NCBI GenBank assembly: GCA_023142915.1 | Contig: JAGLIO010000074.1 | Location: 1-37,353, forward strand | Direction of reading: 5' to 3' | Source: Candidatus Parcubacteria bacterium | Lineage (GTDB): Bacteria > Patescibacteriota > Patescibacteriia > Patescibacteriales > UBA12075 | DNA length: 37,353 nucleotides | Shown here: piece by piece, positions 17,255 through 25,746 of the stretch | How the letters are laid out: the number at the start of each line of letters is the position of its first letter | Numbering within the stretch: the first letter of the stretch is position 1 | Notes under the pieces: model-generated | Databases searched by the model: none | The model's input: only the letters and a program-made list of their open reading frames with translations | What the model was told of the DNA's origin: nothing | Made by a program: the position numbers and the translations under genes

Positions 17255-17593
17255 TTATAAACCAAAATGTTTTTTTAAATATTCTTCTACTTGAGCCATT
17301 ACAATAAATTCTATTTCACCAATCTTATGAATAAAACGCGCTTTATCAAAACTGATTACGTGATAAACTTTGATTAATGAATCTTTATTTAACCTATTTT
17401 TTAAATCTTTTTTTACCGCAATGTCATCTATATATTTATTGGTTGAGCTAGTCATAGGCATTATAGTAACTACTGTTGCAATCTGTATTTGTTTATTGCT
17501 TTCAATAATAAGAGCCGGCCTATCTTTCATATATTCATGACCGACGCTTTTGCTTTCTATAAATTTAACTAACCATATTTCTCCTTTCTTCAT
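17255..17593 (-). CDS. PemK/MazF-like toxin (mRNA interferase family)
   Basis: MKKGEIWLVKF...RPALIIES...ATVVTIMPMTSS; C-terminal IGEIEFIVMAQVEEYLKKHFGL. Confidence 0.85.
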   Translation of the reverse strand: MKKGEIWLVKFIESKSVGHEYMKDRPALIIESNKQIQIATVVTIMPMTSSTNKYIDDIAVKKDLKNRLNKDSLIKVYHVISFDKARFIHKIGEIEFIVMAQVEEYLKKHFGL

Positions 17594-18336
17594 AGTTGTT
17601 TTAAGCTGCGATAATAATTAGCTTCATCCGCTGGCATATCGCCAAGGACATCAAGCGCGTCTCTGCCGGCGGCATCCTGCATTGCCGACAACTCCTTAAA
17701 TGAAGAATTTTTTATTACATTTTTTACAACCCCGTTAACCATATAATTATCATTTTGATGAATAAAAATTGGCGTAATATTTTCGGTTGACTCTGAGGTA
17801 AGCGCGATTTGCTTTCCTTTGCCATCCCATAAAAATTTTTTTATGTTCGCGGCGCCGTCAATTACAGATAACACATAATCACCATTACTAGGACTTTTAT
17901 TACCCGGATCAATCAACACGTAATCGCCCTCTTCAATGGAAAATTCACCATTCACTTTAGCCTGATTCATTGACGGACCTTGAGCCTTAACCGCGAAAAT
18001 ATTTTTTACCTTGCCAATCAAACTTTTTGATACGCGGAGATATCCTTCCAAATTCTCTTCGGCAAACGCGCTTGCTTCACCGCAATCAGCACAGCCATAA
18101 ATAGGGACAGCCACAACGGAATCTTTTCTTATAATTTCCGGATTTACTTTCCCAATTTCACCGGTTTTCTTATTGATATCAACTAATCCCTTCTTTTCCA
18201 ATTGAGCTAAATGATGGCGAATTTTTTGCGGATGCGTTTCATCCACCAATAAAGCAATATCCCTTAAACTCATTTTTTTAAGATTTATCTTTGATGAAAT
18301 GCTTAATAATTTATTTTGTATAGGGTGGATTTGCAT
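17590..18336 (-). CDS. LexA-like S24-peptidase transcriptional repressor
   Basis: N-terminal winged-HTH-like region, LexA-type YGCADCGEASAFAEENLEGYLRV, catalytic GPSMNQA Ser region, ANIKKF Lys region. Confidence 0.88.
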   Translation of the reverse strand: MQIHPIQNKLLSISSKINLKKMSLRDIALLVDETHPQKIRHHLAQLEKKGLVDINKKTGEIGKVNPEIIRKDSVVAVPIYGCADCGEASAFAEENLEGYLRVSKSLIGKVKNIFAVKAQGPSMNQAKVNGEFSIEEGDYVLIDPGNKSPSNGDYVLSVIDGAANIKKFLWDGKGKQIALTSESTENITPIFIHQNDNYMVNGVVKNVIKNSSFKELSAMQDAAGRDALDVLGDMPADEANYYRSLKQL

Positions 18337-18800: not shown

Positions 18801-20681
18801 TTATTGTGCTGGGCTATGGTTATCTTTAATAAGCCCAAATTTCATATTTTCTGCCGCTTCAACACCAACATCCGATCTTAACAAAAAATCATCTAAAAAT
18901 TTCTTTTTCGCTTCGCCTTGCATTAATTCCACTTGGCTTTTTTTTGATAAAAAGGGAAATAGCGTAAATTCAAAATTGTTGTTTTGCAAAACGGCTTTGA
19001 CTGCCAAGCCTTCTTGCGTGTCTTTTGAAAAATATTGATCAAATATAAAATTACCAAGCGAATAAAAAATATACTTGCCTTTATACTCTTCAACTCCTTG
19101 AACAACATGCGGATGATGGCCAATTATCAAATCAGCTCCAAAATCAATTAATTTACGCGCGAATGTTTTTTGTACCGCGTCATAATCACGGCTATACTCT
19201 TTGCCCCAGTGCATATTAACTATTACGGCGTTGGTTTTTGATTCTAAATTTGTAATAATTTTTTCAACTTCCGCCTCGCTTAAAATTCCGTAAACCATGC
19301 TAAAACTTGCCATGCCGATTTTTTTTCCGGCAATATTTAATATTTTAAAACTGCAGTCACCGGTCTTTCTATCACGGCATCCCGAATAAGAAAAACCCAA
19401 ATCATCCAAATTTTTTCTTGTTTCAATAATTCCTTGCTCTCCTTGATCAAATATATGATTATTCGCGATTGTAGAAAAATTAAAATTGTAATTTTTAAGA
19501 TTGGCAATTATCTTTGGCGCAAAAGCAAAATCATAAGCCATTTTAGGGTCATAATGCGCGCCGTCATCTGTAACAGCTCCCTCCAAATTCGCTGAAATTA
19601 TATCACATCCTTGAAAAAATTCTTTTTCCTTGCCGGCAATATTTTCAAACAAATAATCAAAACCTTTTTTATCAATTATATCGCCGACATGGCGATCAAA
19701 CATTAAGTCGCCAAAAAATAAAAATTTTATAGCAGTTGGTTCAATTAATATTTTTTCTTGTTCTTCTTTTGCTTCTTGCTTGTCTCCTCCAAAAAACACA
19801 GCCGTTACATAACTCGTTGTCTCAACATTTAAATTATTATGCATTATTCCGGAATTAGTGTTTTTTAAAATCTTTATTTTACTGTTTTCCAAATAATCTT
19901 TCATCATCATTGGAATTGCCACGCATGACGGGCAATCCAAATTATCATTAGTCATTTTAAAAATTGCTCCATAATCGCTATTCTGTATCGCGGATATTGT
20001 TTCCAAATCTTTTACCTGCGCAATCTCTCCGTCCAAATAATGGGAAAAATCAACTGAAGAAATAATAACAACGTCATCATTTATATAATTCTTTAAAAAA
20101 TTAAAAAACTCCAGCGAATGTTCAATGTCTATTTTACGGCTCATTAAAATCGGGACTACTTTTGAATTTGGCGAATAATGTTTTATAAACGGCAACAGAT
20201 TAAAACAAGCATGATCGTTTTTTACTATTTCATTATCAAGTTTGATAAAATCTGATTCAAGCAAAATATTAATCATTTCCATGTCAGATTCAATTATTCC
20301 CAAATCCGTATCCCAAGAATAATCAGAACAGATCATCAAAGCATCGCCAAGCTCATTATGGTTCGGTCCGATTATTAAAACCGTTTTTGGCTGATTGCTT
20401 AGCGCGACAGAAAACAATTCAGCAATTAAATCCGCCGCAAGCAAATGATGCGGAGAAATGCCGGCAAATATATTATTCTTTATTTTATTTTTATTTATTG
20501 GATACTTTTCCAGTGATTCAAAAAATATTCCCCTATCTTCCAAGGAAACATTATTTATCTTTTTATCCTGCCTGTCTTGTATCTGTAAATTATCCAATTT
20601 AACTAAATCAAAAAAAACAACTGCAAGAGATGTTGCTAATAAAATACAAATTAATAATATTATTTTATTTTTTCCCATCAT
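18801..20681 (-). CDS. MEMO-like (AmmeMemoRadiSam protein B) / CapA-type fusion protein
   Basis: N-half: GISPHHLLAADLIAELF, VLIIGPNHNELG, VVIISSVDFSHYL. C-half: IKFLFFGDLMFDRHVG, SANLEGAVT, TIANNHIFDQGEQG, NMHWGKEY, IIGHHPHVVQGVEEYKGKYIFYSLGNFIFDQ. Confidence 0.88.
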   Translation of the reverse strand: MMGKNKIILLICILLATSLAVVFFDLVKLDNLQIQDRQDKKINNVSLEDRGIFFESLEKYPINKNKIKNNIFAGISPHHLLAADLIAELFSVALSNQPKTVLIIGPNHNELGDALMICSDYSWDTDLGIIESDMEMINILLESDFIKLDNEIVKNDHACFNLLPFIKHYSPNSKVVPILMSRKIDIEHSLEFFNFLKNYINDDVVIISSVDFSHYLDGEIAQVKDLETISAIQNSDYGAIFKMTNDNLDCPSCVAIPMMMKDYLENSKIKILKNTNSGIMHNNLNVETTSYVTAVFFGGDKQEAKEEQEKILIEPTAIKFLFFGDLMFDRHVGDIIDKKGFDYLFENIAGKEKEFFQGCDIISANLEGAVTDDGAHYDPKMAYDFAFAPKIIANLKNYNFNFSTIANNHIFDQGEQGIIETRKNLDDLGFSYSGCRDRKTGDCSFKILNIAGKKIGMASFSMVYGILSEAEVEKIITNLESKTNAVIVNMHWGKEYSRDYDAVQKTFARKLIDFGADLIIGHHPHVVQGVEEYKGKYIFYSLGNFIFDQYFSKDTQEGLAVKAVLQNNNFEFTLFPFLSKKSQVELMQGEAKKKFLDDFLLRSDVGVEAAENMKFGLIKDNHSPAQ

Positions 20682-23600
20682 CCCGCTTGTTTTTATTTAT
20701 TTCTCTTACAAGATAAACAATTCCGATGATTGTCATGATTATTGGAAATAGCAAGCCATAATATTTTTTAATTGGGGCTTTTTTTATTTTTAATTCTCTG
20801 ATAATACCAACATTTTTTTCAGAAAAACTTTCTATTGCCCATTCTTTGATTTCCTCCATTTCTCTTGAATTTTCTTCTATTTCCAAAGTTTGCGCGTCTG
20901 ACATTCCTGATATTTCAGGAGAATACATATAAGAAACATGCGCCGGCGGTACTTGAAAGATTCCGCTGTTTACGACTCTTGCTTTGTATTTAATTGTTCT
21001 TGCGCCATTTCTCGGGTATCTTAAATAAACCTGTATCCCGTCTTTTTTATAATCTTTATCGCCATACCAATACCATCTGCTATAAGAGTTTCTGCCTGAT
21101 TCATTTTTTAATGTTGTGTTAATCGGAATCATTCCGGCAGGCAAAAAATCTTCAATTATCGCGTACTTTCTGTCATTTCCAAAACCGTTCACTTTTAATG
21201 ATATTTCAACAACATCGCCGATTCCAATGGAATAATTAACGCCTTTTTCGTTTTGATAAACGCGATCAATTGAAACGCCGTTGCTAATTGCTTTTGCTTT
21301 TGCGTCTGAATTAAAGTTTTCAATCACAAGCGTTGAGTATATTTTTGTTTTTTCTTCCTGCTCTATCCTTAATTCAGAGCCGCTGTTTTTTATATCAGAC
21401 TCTGAAATATTTAATTCAATAAAACTGTTATTTTTATCAATCACGCCTTTATCAATCATAATATCATCAAGATAAACAAAATATCTATTGCTTTCATTCA
21501 TTTGATAAACAACAAGATAGTCAACCAATGCTTGAATTACCCTGGCTGTTCCGTAAGTATTTGACCAATAGCGAGTTCCGCGATTTTCCAATAAATAACC
21601 GGCCGCCTTATGAATTATGCCGCTTTCATATTTTACTGACAACAAGGCTCTTATCGCCATCGCGTTTGAAGCGTTTCTTGAGCCGTATTTTTCTGAATTT
21701 CCTGCAATCCAATAAATATATTTTCCATCTGTTTTTGATTTTGATAATAATTCTTCAATTCCGATATTTGCCGACTTACTATGACCTGCCAAAGAATTTG
21801 CCATTATCGCGTAAGACAATGATTCAACATCTAAATTTTCAAACTCATTAAAATCATCAATTTTATCTCCCAAAAGAACTAAAACATAATTTCTATACGC
21901 GATTGCTTCATTTTTTGATGATGCGCCGTATTTTGTGTATGAATTCAAGTCTATATCGCGAAAAAAATTGCTTGCTTTTTCAAGCACGCTTTCATCAATA
22001 TCAACTCCGGCGTTTTTTGCTTTTAAAACATATTCAAAAATATACGCGCTTAACGCAATTTCAGATTGATCGGAATTCCACCAAGCCCATCCGCCGTCAT
22101 TATTTTGAAAATTGGCTAAACGATCTATTCCGGCCATAATCATTTTATCCAAATCTTTTCCAAAAAGTTTTTGCTTGAATATTTTTTCATTTTCTTTGGC
22201 AATAACAGCAGGCACAAATTGGCTTGTGGTTTGCTCCATGCATCCATAAGGATAGCCTACTAAATAATCCATTGCCGACATTATCGGTCCTTCAGCAGAC
22301 AAAGATAAGGTTAAGTTAATCTTTGCCTGTTTGGAAGAAGTTGCCAATAAGTCAATCTGATAATTTTGATTGCCATTTCCTGAAAAAGATTTTGTCTGCC
22401 AAAAACCAAACTCTTTAACAGGTATTTTTATTTCAATAATGTCGCCGATTTCATCATCATTAATATCCAAAGCTGAAAATCTTATTACTGCCTGTTCGTT
22501 TTCTTTTTCAGGAAAAACCGACCAATTTATTTGCTTAAAACCTTTTGATTTTATAACAATCTTTTGACTTGAGCTTGCGACGCGTCCTGAATCAAATTCC
22601 AAATCAACAAAAAATTCTCTATCAATATCACTATAATTATTTACAATTGCCGACACAATTATGCTGTCGCCGGTTCTTAATATATTTGGCAATACAGGCT
22701 CTATAAAAATATCTTTTGTGACCAACAAATCTTTTTTTGTTTGACCGACTTTTGTGTCAAGCGTTGCCGCGACTGCCGAAATTACCCAAGTTGTTAAATT
22801 GTCAGGCAATTTAAAAGTAACAGATGCCCTGCCGTTTTTATCTGTTTTTACGCTCGGATTCCAATAAGCTGCATCTTCAAAAACGCTTCTGGTTCCGCCT
22901 CCTTTATCATTATGCACCCAAATATTGTTCGCAATAAATGTATGATATTTTCTTATTTCCAAATTATAAACTTCAAATTTGCCTTTTTGCCATTCAACGG
23001 AATATACTTTTTGTTTTTCTCCATTTGAGTTACGCAAATAATCGCCAATTTGAATTAAGCCGGCAACATTCCAATCGTTATTAATCATTAATATATGATT
23101 TGGCGTTATTTTTAAATTTTCATTAATAATCAAGTATCCATCCACGACCGCATTGTGAACATCAACAACTTCTGCTTTAACCAATTTTTTATTTTCTTTA
23201 TTCGCAAATGTTAATATTTTATCGCCTATGCTAACTTGGCTGATGCTTTTTATTTTATTATCTTGCATTAAAATTTCAGTATCTGCTGAAAAACATCCGC
23301 CTTTTTCAGCCATATCCATATTTAAACCTTTTAATGAATGACTCATTGAAGTGTAAGAATTTCTTACAGACCAAAATTTATCAAAAATATTTCCGGTATT
23401 ATCATCAGCCAATTCAAACAATGCTTTGTCAACCAGCCAAATTGTTGACTCGGTTGAAACACCGTTGCCATTTATGTCTTTTGTTAGAATATCAAGCCGA
23501 ACAGTATCACTAGGTCCGTATTCATCTTTATCGGCCTTGATTTCAACATCCAATAAATATTTTTCAGCTGACACATTAACGTTTCGTATCGCCCGATCAA

Positions 23601-25746
23601 GATTAAAATCAGAAAAACCGCTCGCGCTTATTCTAACATTTGGGATATCTTTAATTTCAACAGGCATTTTAAAATTTGCTTCTCCGCTCCTGATTTTTAT
23701 CACATTAAATCTTTTTACCCAATCTCTTTCTATTGAAACAAAAACATCCCTGTCTTCAATTTTAGAAAAAACTTTAATATTCATATCTTCGCCTGCTTTA
23801 TATTCTTCCTTGTCCGCGATAATTGATAATCCGCCAATCATATTATTATCATAATTATGATAATAATCTCCAACCCAAAAATTAAAACTTTTTTCAATTT
23901 TATTTCCTTTATCATCTTCTAAATTAATTTTTATACTATATGATCCTTTTTTAATTTTCTCAAAATTCAATATAAGCCTGCCGTCGCTATCGGTTGTAAT
24001 AATTTTCTCAGGATAACCCTCTACATTTTTTTTACAACTCCAATAGCCGTTAGTACATACCCATTCCGTTCTTGCGATATTTACTTTTAATTCTCTTTCA
24101 TTGACATTTTTATTGTCATCATACGGGACAATTTTAAATTCCACATCAACATTCCTTCCAACTTGCGCGTTATGTCTTCTGTTAACTCTGAATATTCCAA
24201 ATTCAGCGCCTAAAACCAAAGCATTTTTTCTGGCAATCACTTGGTTTTGCGTGCTATCAATATATTTTGCTTCAATTATATAAACTTGGCCTTTTAATGA
24301 ATCTTTTTCAACATCATTTAAAACAACCTCGGCCATGCCCTCTTCATTTAAGTCAACAACACCTGTCTTTACTGTGTTTTTACCATAATAATATCCATAA
24401 TGATATGAATTATCTTGTTTTTTAAAATATTCCAAATACGGAGATTCATAATAATCTCGCCTTTTTACCGTATAACTTACCTGCTTATTATTAAGAGGCT
24501 GTCCTGAAAAATAACTGCCTTTTATTTTAAACTTTAAATCAGAACCGGCAATGACTTTTGTGTAGTCCATATCAATATCAAGCGTATATTCCGGCTTGCG
24601 ATAATGCTCAACTAAAAAATTAATATTTGCCGAAGGAGTGTAACCGCCCCAGCCCCAACGGCTCGTTACCGCTTGTTCGCCTTCTTTTTTCAAATTAATC
24701 GTATAATTTCCCGTTTTAGCTGATTTTGGAATAATAAATTCACCGTCAACCGCTCCGTAATTATCTATATTAAATTTGTCAGTATAAACGATTGTTTTGT
24801 TCTGTCCATATCCCGTATAGACTTCTGCTTTTATTTCTCCGCTGAATATTTTATAATCAGCATCCAAATCAGCCCTCATTATTGATTTAAATTTAACAGT
24901 GTCACCAGGCTTATATATCGGACGATCAGTAAAAGCAAAATATTTTGTGCTTGGCTGTACTTCTTCAAAATTACCTGATTCGCCATAACCGCTATTTAAA
25001 TATTTCAAATTTAAAAATACTAAAGATTCAGAGCCATCAGACTTAATCACTGCCACGTCAACATCTTCGCTTATTTTTGTTTTCGCGATTCCGTCATTAT
25101 TAATTATACTCTTATCCATTTCTTCTTTTTTATCTTCCAAATTATATACTGTTACAGAACCGCCTGTTCTACTTTTCTTGGTTACGAAATCTTGAGACCA
25201 AAAAATTATTTCCTTTTGCGCCTCATGCGCCACTGTGCCAAAATTTGATCTTACAACATAAGCGTAATGGCTTTTTTTATCAATTTTCATATCCAACAAA
25301 AACACGCCGTCAGCGTTAATGGGCAAAAGTACTGTTTTCTCGCCTCTATATGAATATCTGTATTCTGACAAAGCAACATCAAGTGAAGCCACAAAAGGCA
25401 AACCGTCTGTATTGGCAGACGAGTCTAATTGATTTTTTTTATCATCATGAACAAGAAAATCAAGCAAATTGTCCATATCTGTTTTATATACATTAATATG
25501 TATGTTGCCTGATAAATTATATCCTGACATTTGTATAGAAGGCTCATCCAAAGAGCTAAGCAAAATAATACCGCCCCTGCTTCTTGAGTTATTGTTTCCA
25601 TCAATATAAATTCTCGGCCTGTTCGTGTCCGGACCGCCGGCATCCGCTTTATTAACATAATCGGCGATTAACGGAATTAATAAAACTCCAATTAAAAAAA
25701 CACTAAAAAAATAAAATAAAATTTTGCTTTTTAATTTTTTTGCCAT
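20665..25746 (-). CDS. Alpha-2-macroglobulin-like protein, thioester-containing, with an embedded Hint domain
   Basis: MG-type TDRPIYKPGDTVKFKSIMRAD; FEDAAYWNPSVKTDKNGRASVTFKLPDNLTTWVISAVA; thioester YGCMEQTTSQFVPAV; TM segments at both termini. Confidence 0.93.
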   Translation of the reverse strand: MAKKLKSKILFYFFSVFLIGVLLIPLIADYVNKADAGGPDTNRPRIYIDGNNNSRSRGGIILLSSLDEPSIQMSGYNLSGNIHINVYKTDMDNLLDFLVHDDKKNQLDSSANTDGLPFVASLDVALSEYRYSYRGEKTVLLPINADGVFLLDMKIDKKSHYAYVVRSNFGTVAHEAQKEIIFWSQDFVTKKSRTGGSVTVYNLEDKKEEMDKSIINNDGIAKTKISEDVDVAVIKSDGSESLVFLNLKYLNSGYGESGNFEEVQPSTKYFAFTDRPIYKPGDTVKFKSIMRADLDADYKIFSGEIKAEVYTGYGQNKTIVYTDKFNIDNYGAVDGEFIIPKSAKTGNYTINLKKEGEQAVTSRWGWGGYTPSANINFLVEHYRKPEYTLDIDMDYTKVIAGSDLKFKIKGSYFSGQPLNNKQVSYTVKRRDYYESPYLEYFKKQDNSYHYGYYYGKNTVKTGVVDLNEEGMAEVVLNDVEKDSLKGQVYIIEAKYIDSTQNQVIARKNALVLGAEFGIFRVNRRHNAQVGRNVDVEFKIVPYDDNKNVNERELKVNIARTEWVCTNGYWSCKKNVEGYPEKIITTDSDGRLILNFEKIKKGSYSIKINLEDDKGNKIEKSFNFWVGDYYHNYDNNMIGGLSIIADKEEYKAGEDMNIKVFSKIEDRDVFVSIERDWVKRFNVIKIRSGEANFKMPVEIKDIPNVRISASGFSDFNLDRAIRNVNVSAEKYLLDVEIKADKDEYGPSDTVRLDILTKDINGNGVSTESTIWLVDKALFELADDNTGNIFDKFWSVRNSYTSMSHSLKGLNMDMAEKGGCFSADTEILMQDNKIKSISQVSIGDKILTFANKENKKLVKAEVVDVHNAVVDGYLIINENLKITPNHILMINNDWNVAGLIQIGDYLRNSNGEKQKVYSVEWQKGKFEVYNLEIRKYHTFIANNIWVHNDKGGGTRSVFEDAAYWNPSVKTDKNGRASVTFKLPDNLTTWVISAVAATLDTKVGQTKKDLLVTKDIFIEPVLPNILRTGDSIIVSAIVNNYSDIDREFFVDLEFDSGRVASSSQKIVIKSKGFKQINWSVFPEKENEQAVIRFSALDINDDEIGDIIEIKIPVKEFGFWQTKSFSGNGNQNYQIDLLATSSKQAKINLTLSLSAEGPIMSAMDYLVGYPYGCMEQTTSQFVPAVIAKENEKIFKQKLFGKDLDKMIMAGIDRLANFQNNDGGWAWWNSDQSEIALSAYIFEYVLKAKNAGVDIDESVLEKASNFFRDIDLNSYTKYGASSKNEAIAYRNYVLVLLGDKIDDFNEFENLDVESLSYAIMANSLAGHSKSANIGIEELLSKSKTDGKYIYWIAGNSEKYGSRNASNAMAIRALLSVKYESGIIHKAAGYLLENRGTRYWSNTYGTARVIQALVDYLVVYQMNESNRYFVYLDDIMIDKGVIDKNNSFIELNISESDIKNSGSELRIEQEEKTKIYSTLVIENFNSDAKAKAISNGVSIDRVYQNEKGVNYSIGIGDVVEISLKVNGFGNDRKYAIIEDFLPAGMIPINTTLKNESGRNSYSRWYWYGDKDYKKDGIQVYLRYPRNGARTIKYKARVVNSGIFQVPPAHVSYMYSPEISGMSDAQTLEIEENSREMEEIKEWAIESFSEKNVGIIRELKIKKAPIKKYYGLLFPIIMTIIGIVYLVREINKNKRDDGKK
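22231..22245 (-). other. A2M thioester motif GCMEQ
   Basis: Codons GGA TGC ATG GAG CAA on the minus strand, matching CxEQ. Confidence 0.92.
22909..23295 (-). other. Hint (mini-intein/BIL-like) domain, 129 aa, inside the A2M ORF
   Basis: Block A CFSADTEILMQDNKIKSISQVSIGDKILTF; block B LKITPNHILMI; C-terminal VYNLEIRKYHTFIANNIWVHN followed by D. Confidence 0.9.

Follow-up and report, generated by a model that had tools for sequence, protein, structure and literature searches.

A BIL-like Hint domain at a conserved site in the bait region of alpha-2-macroglobulins of Patescibacteria

The window analyzed in this study, a stretch of 37,353 nucleotides from a Candidatus Parcubacteria bacterium (contig JAGLIO010000074.1), encodes an alpha-2-macroglobulin (A2M) whose bait region is interrupted by a Hint domain. 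Seventy distinct A2Ms, almost all from Patescibacteria, were found to have a Hint domain at this bait site. The best explanation, to which a probability of roughly 55% is assigned, is that a type A bacterial intein-like (BIL) autoprocessing domain resides in the bait of membrane-anchored A2Ms of this phylum and cuts the bait from within, serving as an internal trigger or a step in maturation. BILs and A2Ms are known families, but their combination and its conserved placement appear to be new; searches of the open literature for inteins or Hint domains together with macroglobulins, and for A2Ms in Patescibacteria, returned nothing relevant.

The A2M gene and its Hint domain

The A2M gene is a single intact ORF encoding 1,693 amino acids, with the Hint domain in frame within it (Table 1). 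The Pfam models MG2, A2M_BRD, A2M, TED, and bMG10 matched the product in this order, each above its cut-off, and the A2M part of an AlphaFold model of residues 601–1624 matched the folds of the Salmonella and E. coli A2Ms (4u48, 5a42, 4ziu). Hydrophobic segments are present at both ends of the protein, as in its nearest relatives, and the C-terminal one is common to the group of A2Ms that possess both a thioester and a Hint domain. The same genome encodes a second A2M of 2,159 amino acids (G000 contig 56; L069:584-7060, minus strand), with the thioester motif GCSEQ and without a Hint domain, and no second Hint copy was found in this genome.

Table 1. Features of the A2M locus in the window.
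Feature	Position	Strand	Residues and basis
Memo-like and PGA_cap partner gene, with N-terminal hydrophobic segment	18801..20681	-	Pfam
Bacterial A2M gene	20665..25746	-	ORF and Pfam domains
A2M domain order: N-terminal hydrophobic segment, MG domains, bait-region domain, interrupting Hint, A2M/CUB/TED, bMG10, C-terminal hydrophobic segment			
C-terminal hydrophobic segment, predicted membrane anchor	20698..20763	-	about residues 1662-1683; hydropathy
Thioester motif GCMEQ in TED	22231..22245	-	residues 1168-1172
C-side bait flank DKGGGTR	22888..22908	-	residues 947-953; +1 Asp; corresponds in alignment to switch segment Phe947-Asn963 of E. coli A2M
Hint (BIL type A-like) domain	22909..23295	-	residues 818-946 of A2M; Pfam, alignment, AlphaFold fold
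Catalytic positions of Hint: Cys818 (C1), Thr881/His884 (block B TxxH), Asn928 (block F:4), His935 (F:13), His945-Asn946 (block G)			
N-side bait flank MDMAEKGG	23296..23319	-	residues 810-817; -1 Gly
N-terminal hydrophobic segment, signal peptide or signal anchor	25666..25722	-	residues 9-27; hydropathy

A first-pass annotation, made from the nucleotide sequence without database searches, had described a 129-residue Hint-like block in the bait of this A2M, with an N-terminal Cys, a TxxH motif, a terminal His-Asn, Asp at +1, and no homing endonuclease. The block is real and correctly delimited: the minus-strand translation of the interval reproduces it exactly within one ORF, the plus strand across it contains seven stops, and all of these residues and features are present in the window. 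The further proposals that the domain is of a self-processing kind and that it lies in the bait agree with the evidence set out below, as does its recurrence in related A2Ms, the absence of which was named there as a refutation; the domain is also unlike a silent class 1 intein.

In isolation, the block scored 32.7 bits with the Pfam model PT-HINT (cut-off 27.7) and 30.8 with Vint (cut-off 27); matches to Intein_splicing and Hedgehog-Hint were weaker. AlphaFold, supplied with 57 aligned copies, returned a HINT fold (mean pLDDT 90.8), whose top matches in the PDB were the BILs 6tmm/6y75 (TM 0.82) and 2lwy (TM 0.81, rmsd 1.8 Å). The last of these, from C. thermocellum, is also the closest solved relative by sequence profile (E 2.3e-18).

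Among the 69–70 distinct copies, Cys1, Phe2, Thr64, His67, Asp85, Asn111, His128, and Asn129 are invariant (C1 in 70/70; T64, H67, N111, H128, and N129 in 69/69), and the block-F His is kept in 59 of 69. Selection on the domain is purifying, with dN/dS values of 0.03–0.11 in pairs of close relatives, which were lower than those of the rest of the protein in five of the six computable pairs. From these invariant residues and low ratios, the Hint domain looks catalytically complete and constrained. A Cys besides C1 occurs in just one of 70 copies. The −1 residue is Gly in 66 of 70 proteins, and the +1 residue in the 69 readable ones is D (23), E (23), Q (9), A (7), N (4), S (2), or K (1), never Cys or Thr. 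At block F:4, all 69 copies have Asn; in inteins, Asp at this position activates Cys1 and may restrain Asn cyclization (PMC4031507). Type A BILs keep the His-Asn and are able to splice, but mostly cleave (PMC4031507). Since Cys or Thr never follows the domain and the block-F Asp is always replaced by Asn, the domain is best classed from its sequence as a type A BIL and not as a class 1 intein.

Position of the domain in the bait region

Several comparisons place the Hint domain in the bait. In the model of residues 601–1624 (47 aligned sequences; pLDDT 87, pTM 0.68) it occupies model residues 218–346, between strands 166–173 and 359–367 of one MG domain, and the linker preceding it has a pLDDT below 50. 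A few positions beyond the domain, residue 952 aligns with position 731 of human A2M, the bait of which spans about 690–728, so that 731 lies just behind it. On E. coli A2M, the insertion point falls after RFGG and before DGDELKRGGK, i.e., at G949/D950, by a profile alignment with moderate posterior support (about 0.6–0.7); the chain was converted to published numbering by adding 22, checked against Cys1187, Phe947, Arg956, Gly958, and Asn963. When E. coli A2M is cleaved, the segment Phe947–Asn963 is freed, binds the C-terminal MG domain (CTMG), and displaces the TED (PMC4498604). According to the model and these alignments, therefore, the Hint domain is within a predicted disordered bait loop, inside the equivalent of this 947–963 segment.

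Among A2Ms in general the bait varies, but in the Hint-bearing family both the insertion site and the sequence around it are conserved. The AE.GG of the N-side flank is kept in relatives, and a Lys is found within positions +1 to +3 after the domain in 69 of 69 readable proteins. In thioester-less relatives without the domain, the corresponding site mostly resembles GAEKGGGGGG.R. Were the Hint domain excised and the bait perfectly ligated, the median length between the anchors would be 82 residues, compared with 90 in Hint-less relatives.

Recurrence and history

When A2Ms were sampled without regard to the Hint domain, 31 of 69 were found to possess it, and every strong Hint match in a 380-genome sample of the phylum fell in an A2M bait. 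A scan of 85,000 species genomes recovered more than 50 A2Ms with a Hint domain at the same site, all assigned by placement or title to Patescibacteria with the exception of one WOR-1 bin. A tree of 130 A2M backbones, from which the Hint domain had been removed, split into two deep groups with good support, of which the first mostly has the thioester and the second lacks it; the Hint domain is found in both, with at least 12–13 state changes. The tree of the Hint domain itself, although built from few columns, mostly repeats the close groups of the backbone tree, which points to long residence. One transfer of the domain is likely: L254, an A2M whose backbone sister has no Hint, has one that groups with the window's. 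In a further lineage (L123/L248, L263, L260), a divergent Hint subtype is found at this site. That some 70 distantly related proteins have the Hint domain at one and the same place suggests that it is probably a working part of the A2M and not a passenger.

An origin from a mobile element was considered and rejected: no viral contig carries a Hint-bearing A2M, the plasmid relatives of the domain are mostly toxin-type Hints, none of them an A2M, and the domain is present as a single copy in the genome. The nearest Hints found outside A2Ms form the C-terminal ends of secreted proteases, namely a subtilase and a reprolysin-like protein with FG-GAP repeats (L057:28-5193, L060:7984-12231). One genome (G462; L215, L264) has three A2M genes and several Hint-like matches, with a bait Hint in one A2M only, and at L061:5988-8900 a gene for DNA gyrase subunit A is interrupted by an intein-like domain.

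The thioester and the Hint domain

It had been proposed in the first-pass annotation that the Hint domain pre-activates or arms the downstream thioester. The GCxEQ motif is kept in only eight of the 70 Hint-bearing A2Ms and lost in the other 62, so on sequence grounds arming cannot be the general role of the domain. It is possible in the window's own protein, which is among the eight. Of the sampled A2Ms, 28 of 51 without a thioester possess the Hint domain, against 3 of 18 with one, and 23 of the 69 have neither. Whilst these raw counts lean toward the Hint domain being a substitute for the lost TED thioester, this idea was rejected because on the tree the two traits do not shift in concert.

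Gene neighborhood

The partner gene lies directly downstream of the A2M gene and overlaps its stop by 17 bases. Among loci with room to see it, a relative of this gene adjoins 47 of 65 Hint-bearing A2Ms (7/7 with a thioester, 40/58 without) vs. 13 of 59 Hint-less ones (0/30 with, 13/29 without). Independent pairs are too few to separate this association from shared descent, and the Memo-like protein was not retained as a Hint-dependent factor. More generally, Memo-like proteins that are secreted or anchored in the membrane, some having a PGA_cap domain and some lacking it, are closely linked to A2M genes of Patescibacteria, in the window and in homologues at 62 loci. Classical Hint-less A2Ms are more often found beside a PbpC-like gene.

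Many thioester-less A2M genes follow an ECF sigma factor gene within a few bases. At L048:5693-6373, for example, such a gene directly precedes an A2M gene at L048:6380, and further loci of this kind, mostly with thioester-less A2Ms, include L049, L063, L082, L088, L096, L108, L231, and L245, among others. The sigma-linked A2Ms have, ahead of the membrane segment, a cytoplasmic N-terminus of 36–119 residues, with a median of 73 compared to 19 in those without a sigma gene (p 6e-10, uncorrected for relatedness). This long N-terminus suggests an anti-sigma role for these proteins, which would resemble anti-sigma receptors; a known anti-sigma domain was sought there, but Pfam gave no match. The window's A2M has no ECF sigma gene upstream. 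Elsewhere in the window (17255-18336, minus strand), a LexA/S24-peptidase-like regulator comes before a PemK/MazF-like toxin gene, a combination unusual among toxin-antitoxin units.

Proposed mechanism and alternative explanations

In the reading preferred here, Cys818, helped by Thr881 and His884, would convert the Gly817-Cys818 bond to a thioester through an N-S acyl shift, and Asn946, helped by His945, would cyclize and so cut the chain before Asp947. As there is no nucleophile at +1 and block F:4 has Asn instead of Asp, the two cuts would be uncoupled, unlike those of an ordinary intein, and internal cleavage of the bait should be the main outcome. In some molecules the freed amino group could attack the thioester and re-join the halves by a BIL-type ligation (...AEKGG-DKGGGTR...). 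The cut before Asp947 would free the equivalent of the segment that a protease frees in the E. coli A2M bait, which is why the Hint domain may be a built-in trigger or maturation step. The eight thioester-bearing members call for either a cue or ligation, since constitutive cutting would waste the thioester. A bolder version, which seems rather unlikely, is that on cue the Hint domain either cuts the bait or passes the N-terminal half, via its own thioester, to an amine of the attacker; the trap would then be sprung by autocatalysis and not by the attacking protease, and the thioester-less majority would be covalently charged.

Silent, or merely timed, BIL-type splicing is a doubtful but serious alternative, in which the domain, once folded, would soon excise itself and re-join the bait, so that an ordinary Gly-rich AEKGG-DKGGG would remain and the domain would have no part in the trap. 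The residues for both half-reactions are all kept, as full excision needs, and type A BILs can ligate through a free amino group according to the review PMC4031507, which cites Aranko 2013 on 2lwy. The ligated product would resemble Hint-less baits in both motif and length, and for this reason such splicing also fits. The loss of Asp at F:4 and the non-nucleophilic +1 residue in nearly all copies are, however, features of BILs that mainly cleave. A silent passenger is further disfavored because the domain has neither an endonuclease nor apparent mobility and sits in a Gly-rich linker that should tolerate its precise loss, yet it persists intact over deep divergence, in 70 lineages, and the largely shared close groups of the Hint and backbone trees speak against recent arrival.

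The thioester at Gly817 could instead be attacked by a Lys of the attacker, or by the conserved Lys after the domain, leaving the N-terminal half joined by an isopeptide bond, so that the bait would supply the capture chemistry that most TEDs have lost. Such a transfer, though unlikely, is conceivable: the top fold match, Tetrahymena BUBL1 BIL2, makes isopeptide bonds with lysine and hands the domain on its N side over to other proteins (PMC8616854). Both the loss of the TED thioester in most of the family and the Lys following the domain in every readable protein would suit it, but presence of the Hint domain does not track thioester loss in independent tree pairs, and thioester-less A2Ms without the domain exist. 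Lys-Gly-Gly is also frequent in Hint-less baits (35/46), so the conserved Lys may simply belong to the A2M switch motif, and it was not accepted as an isopeptide nucleophile. That the domain is unreactive, its folded bulk only capping or spacing the bait in a structural or protease-sensing role, is quite improbable: its place in a disordered loop and the AE.GG still found on the N side of the bait would permit this, but a domain serving only as a spacer would not retain an invariant Cys1, TxxH, and terminal His-Asn, and the near absence of any other Cys also counts against it. Chance resemblance or a misassembled fusion is scarcely credible in view of the intact ORF, the confident fold, and the recurrence of the architecture across dozens of independent assemblies, and nothing in the data analyzed was found to favor it.

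Comparison with known systems

The type A BIL of C. thermocellum (2lwy) shares the HINT fold, the N-terminal Cys, the TxxH, and the terminal His-Asn with the window's domain, likewise has VYN in place of VYD at block F, and has no Cys or Thr at +1. Type A BILs are found in scattered variable regions of non-housekeeping proteins, whereas the Hint described here, of predicted activity, occupies one conserved site in one extracellular family. BUBL1 BIL2 (6tmm/6y75), the best fold match, also lies between two functional domains, but it joins a ubiquitin-like domain to lysine and no such product is known for a Hint-bearing A2M. In comparison with class 1 inteins, which have Cys, Ser, or Thr at +1 and most commonly Asp at F:4, the window has Asp at +1, and in its relatives Ser is limited to 2 of 69. 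Large inteins possess a homing endonuclease, which is missing here. The pretoxin HINT (PF07591) of polymorphic toxins is the best Pfam model for the domain, and plasmid relatives are annotated as such; however, in those proteins a toxin domain follows, and in the window A2M, TED, and bMG10 follow instead. Hedgehog proteins are cleaved at a Gly-Gly/Cys-Phe junction, and that of the window is similar, but the C-terminal Hint of Hedgehog uses a sterol and has no terminal His-Asn reaction, while the window's domain has the His-Asn and ends in the A2M chain.

The A2Ms of E. coli and Salmonella (YfhM/ECAM, SaA2M) have the same domain order, with a Gly-rich switch segment after the bait and a thioester as in the window. 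Their baits are, however, simple disordered loops without a Hint domain that are cut by foreign proteases, and their partner is PbpC instead of a Memo/PGA_cap gene. A precedent for self-cleavage of extracytoplasmic signaling proteins is the anti-sigma factor FoxR, a membrane protein with a single pass, which cuts itself by an acyl shift in its extracytoplasmic part ahead of signaling (PMC11637429). It does so with a different domain and chemistry (an N-O shift at Gly-Thr), and an ECF sigma gene is found beside only some of the A2M relatives, not beside that of the window.

Implications

In A2Ms and complement proteins, the known trigger is a protease that cuts a loop; here the cutting chemistry seems to be built into the loop itself. 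If the Hint domain is active, this would give a defined job to BIL domains, whose role in nature has been unclear, and would represent either a new route of A2M activation or a two-chain maturation. It would also provide a compact switch that can be tested and might prove useful. The findings also point to extracellular A2M systems in Patescibacteria, some of them beside ECF sigma genes, that seem to be undescribed in the open literature searched.
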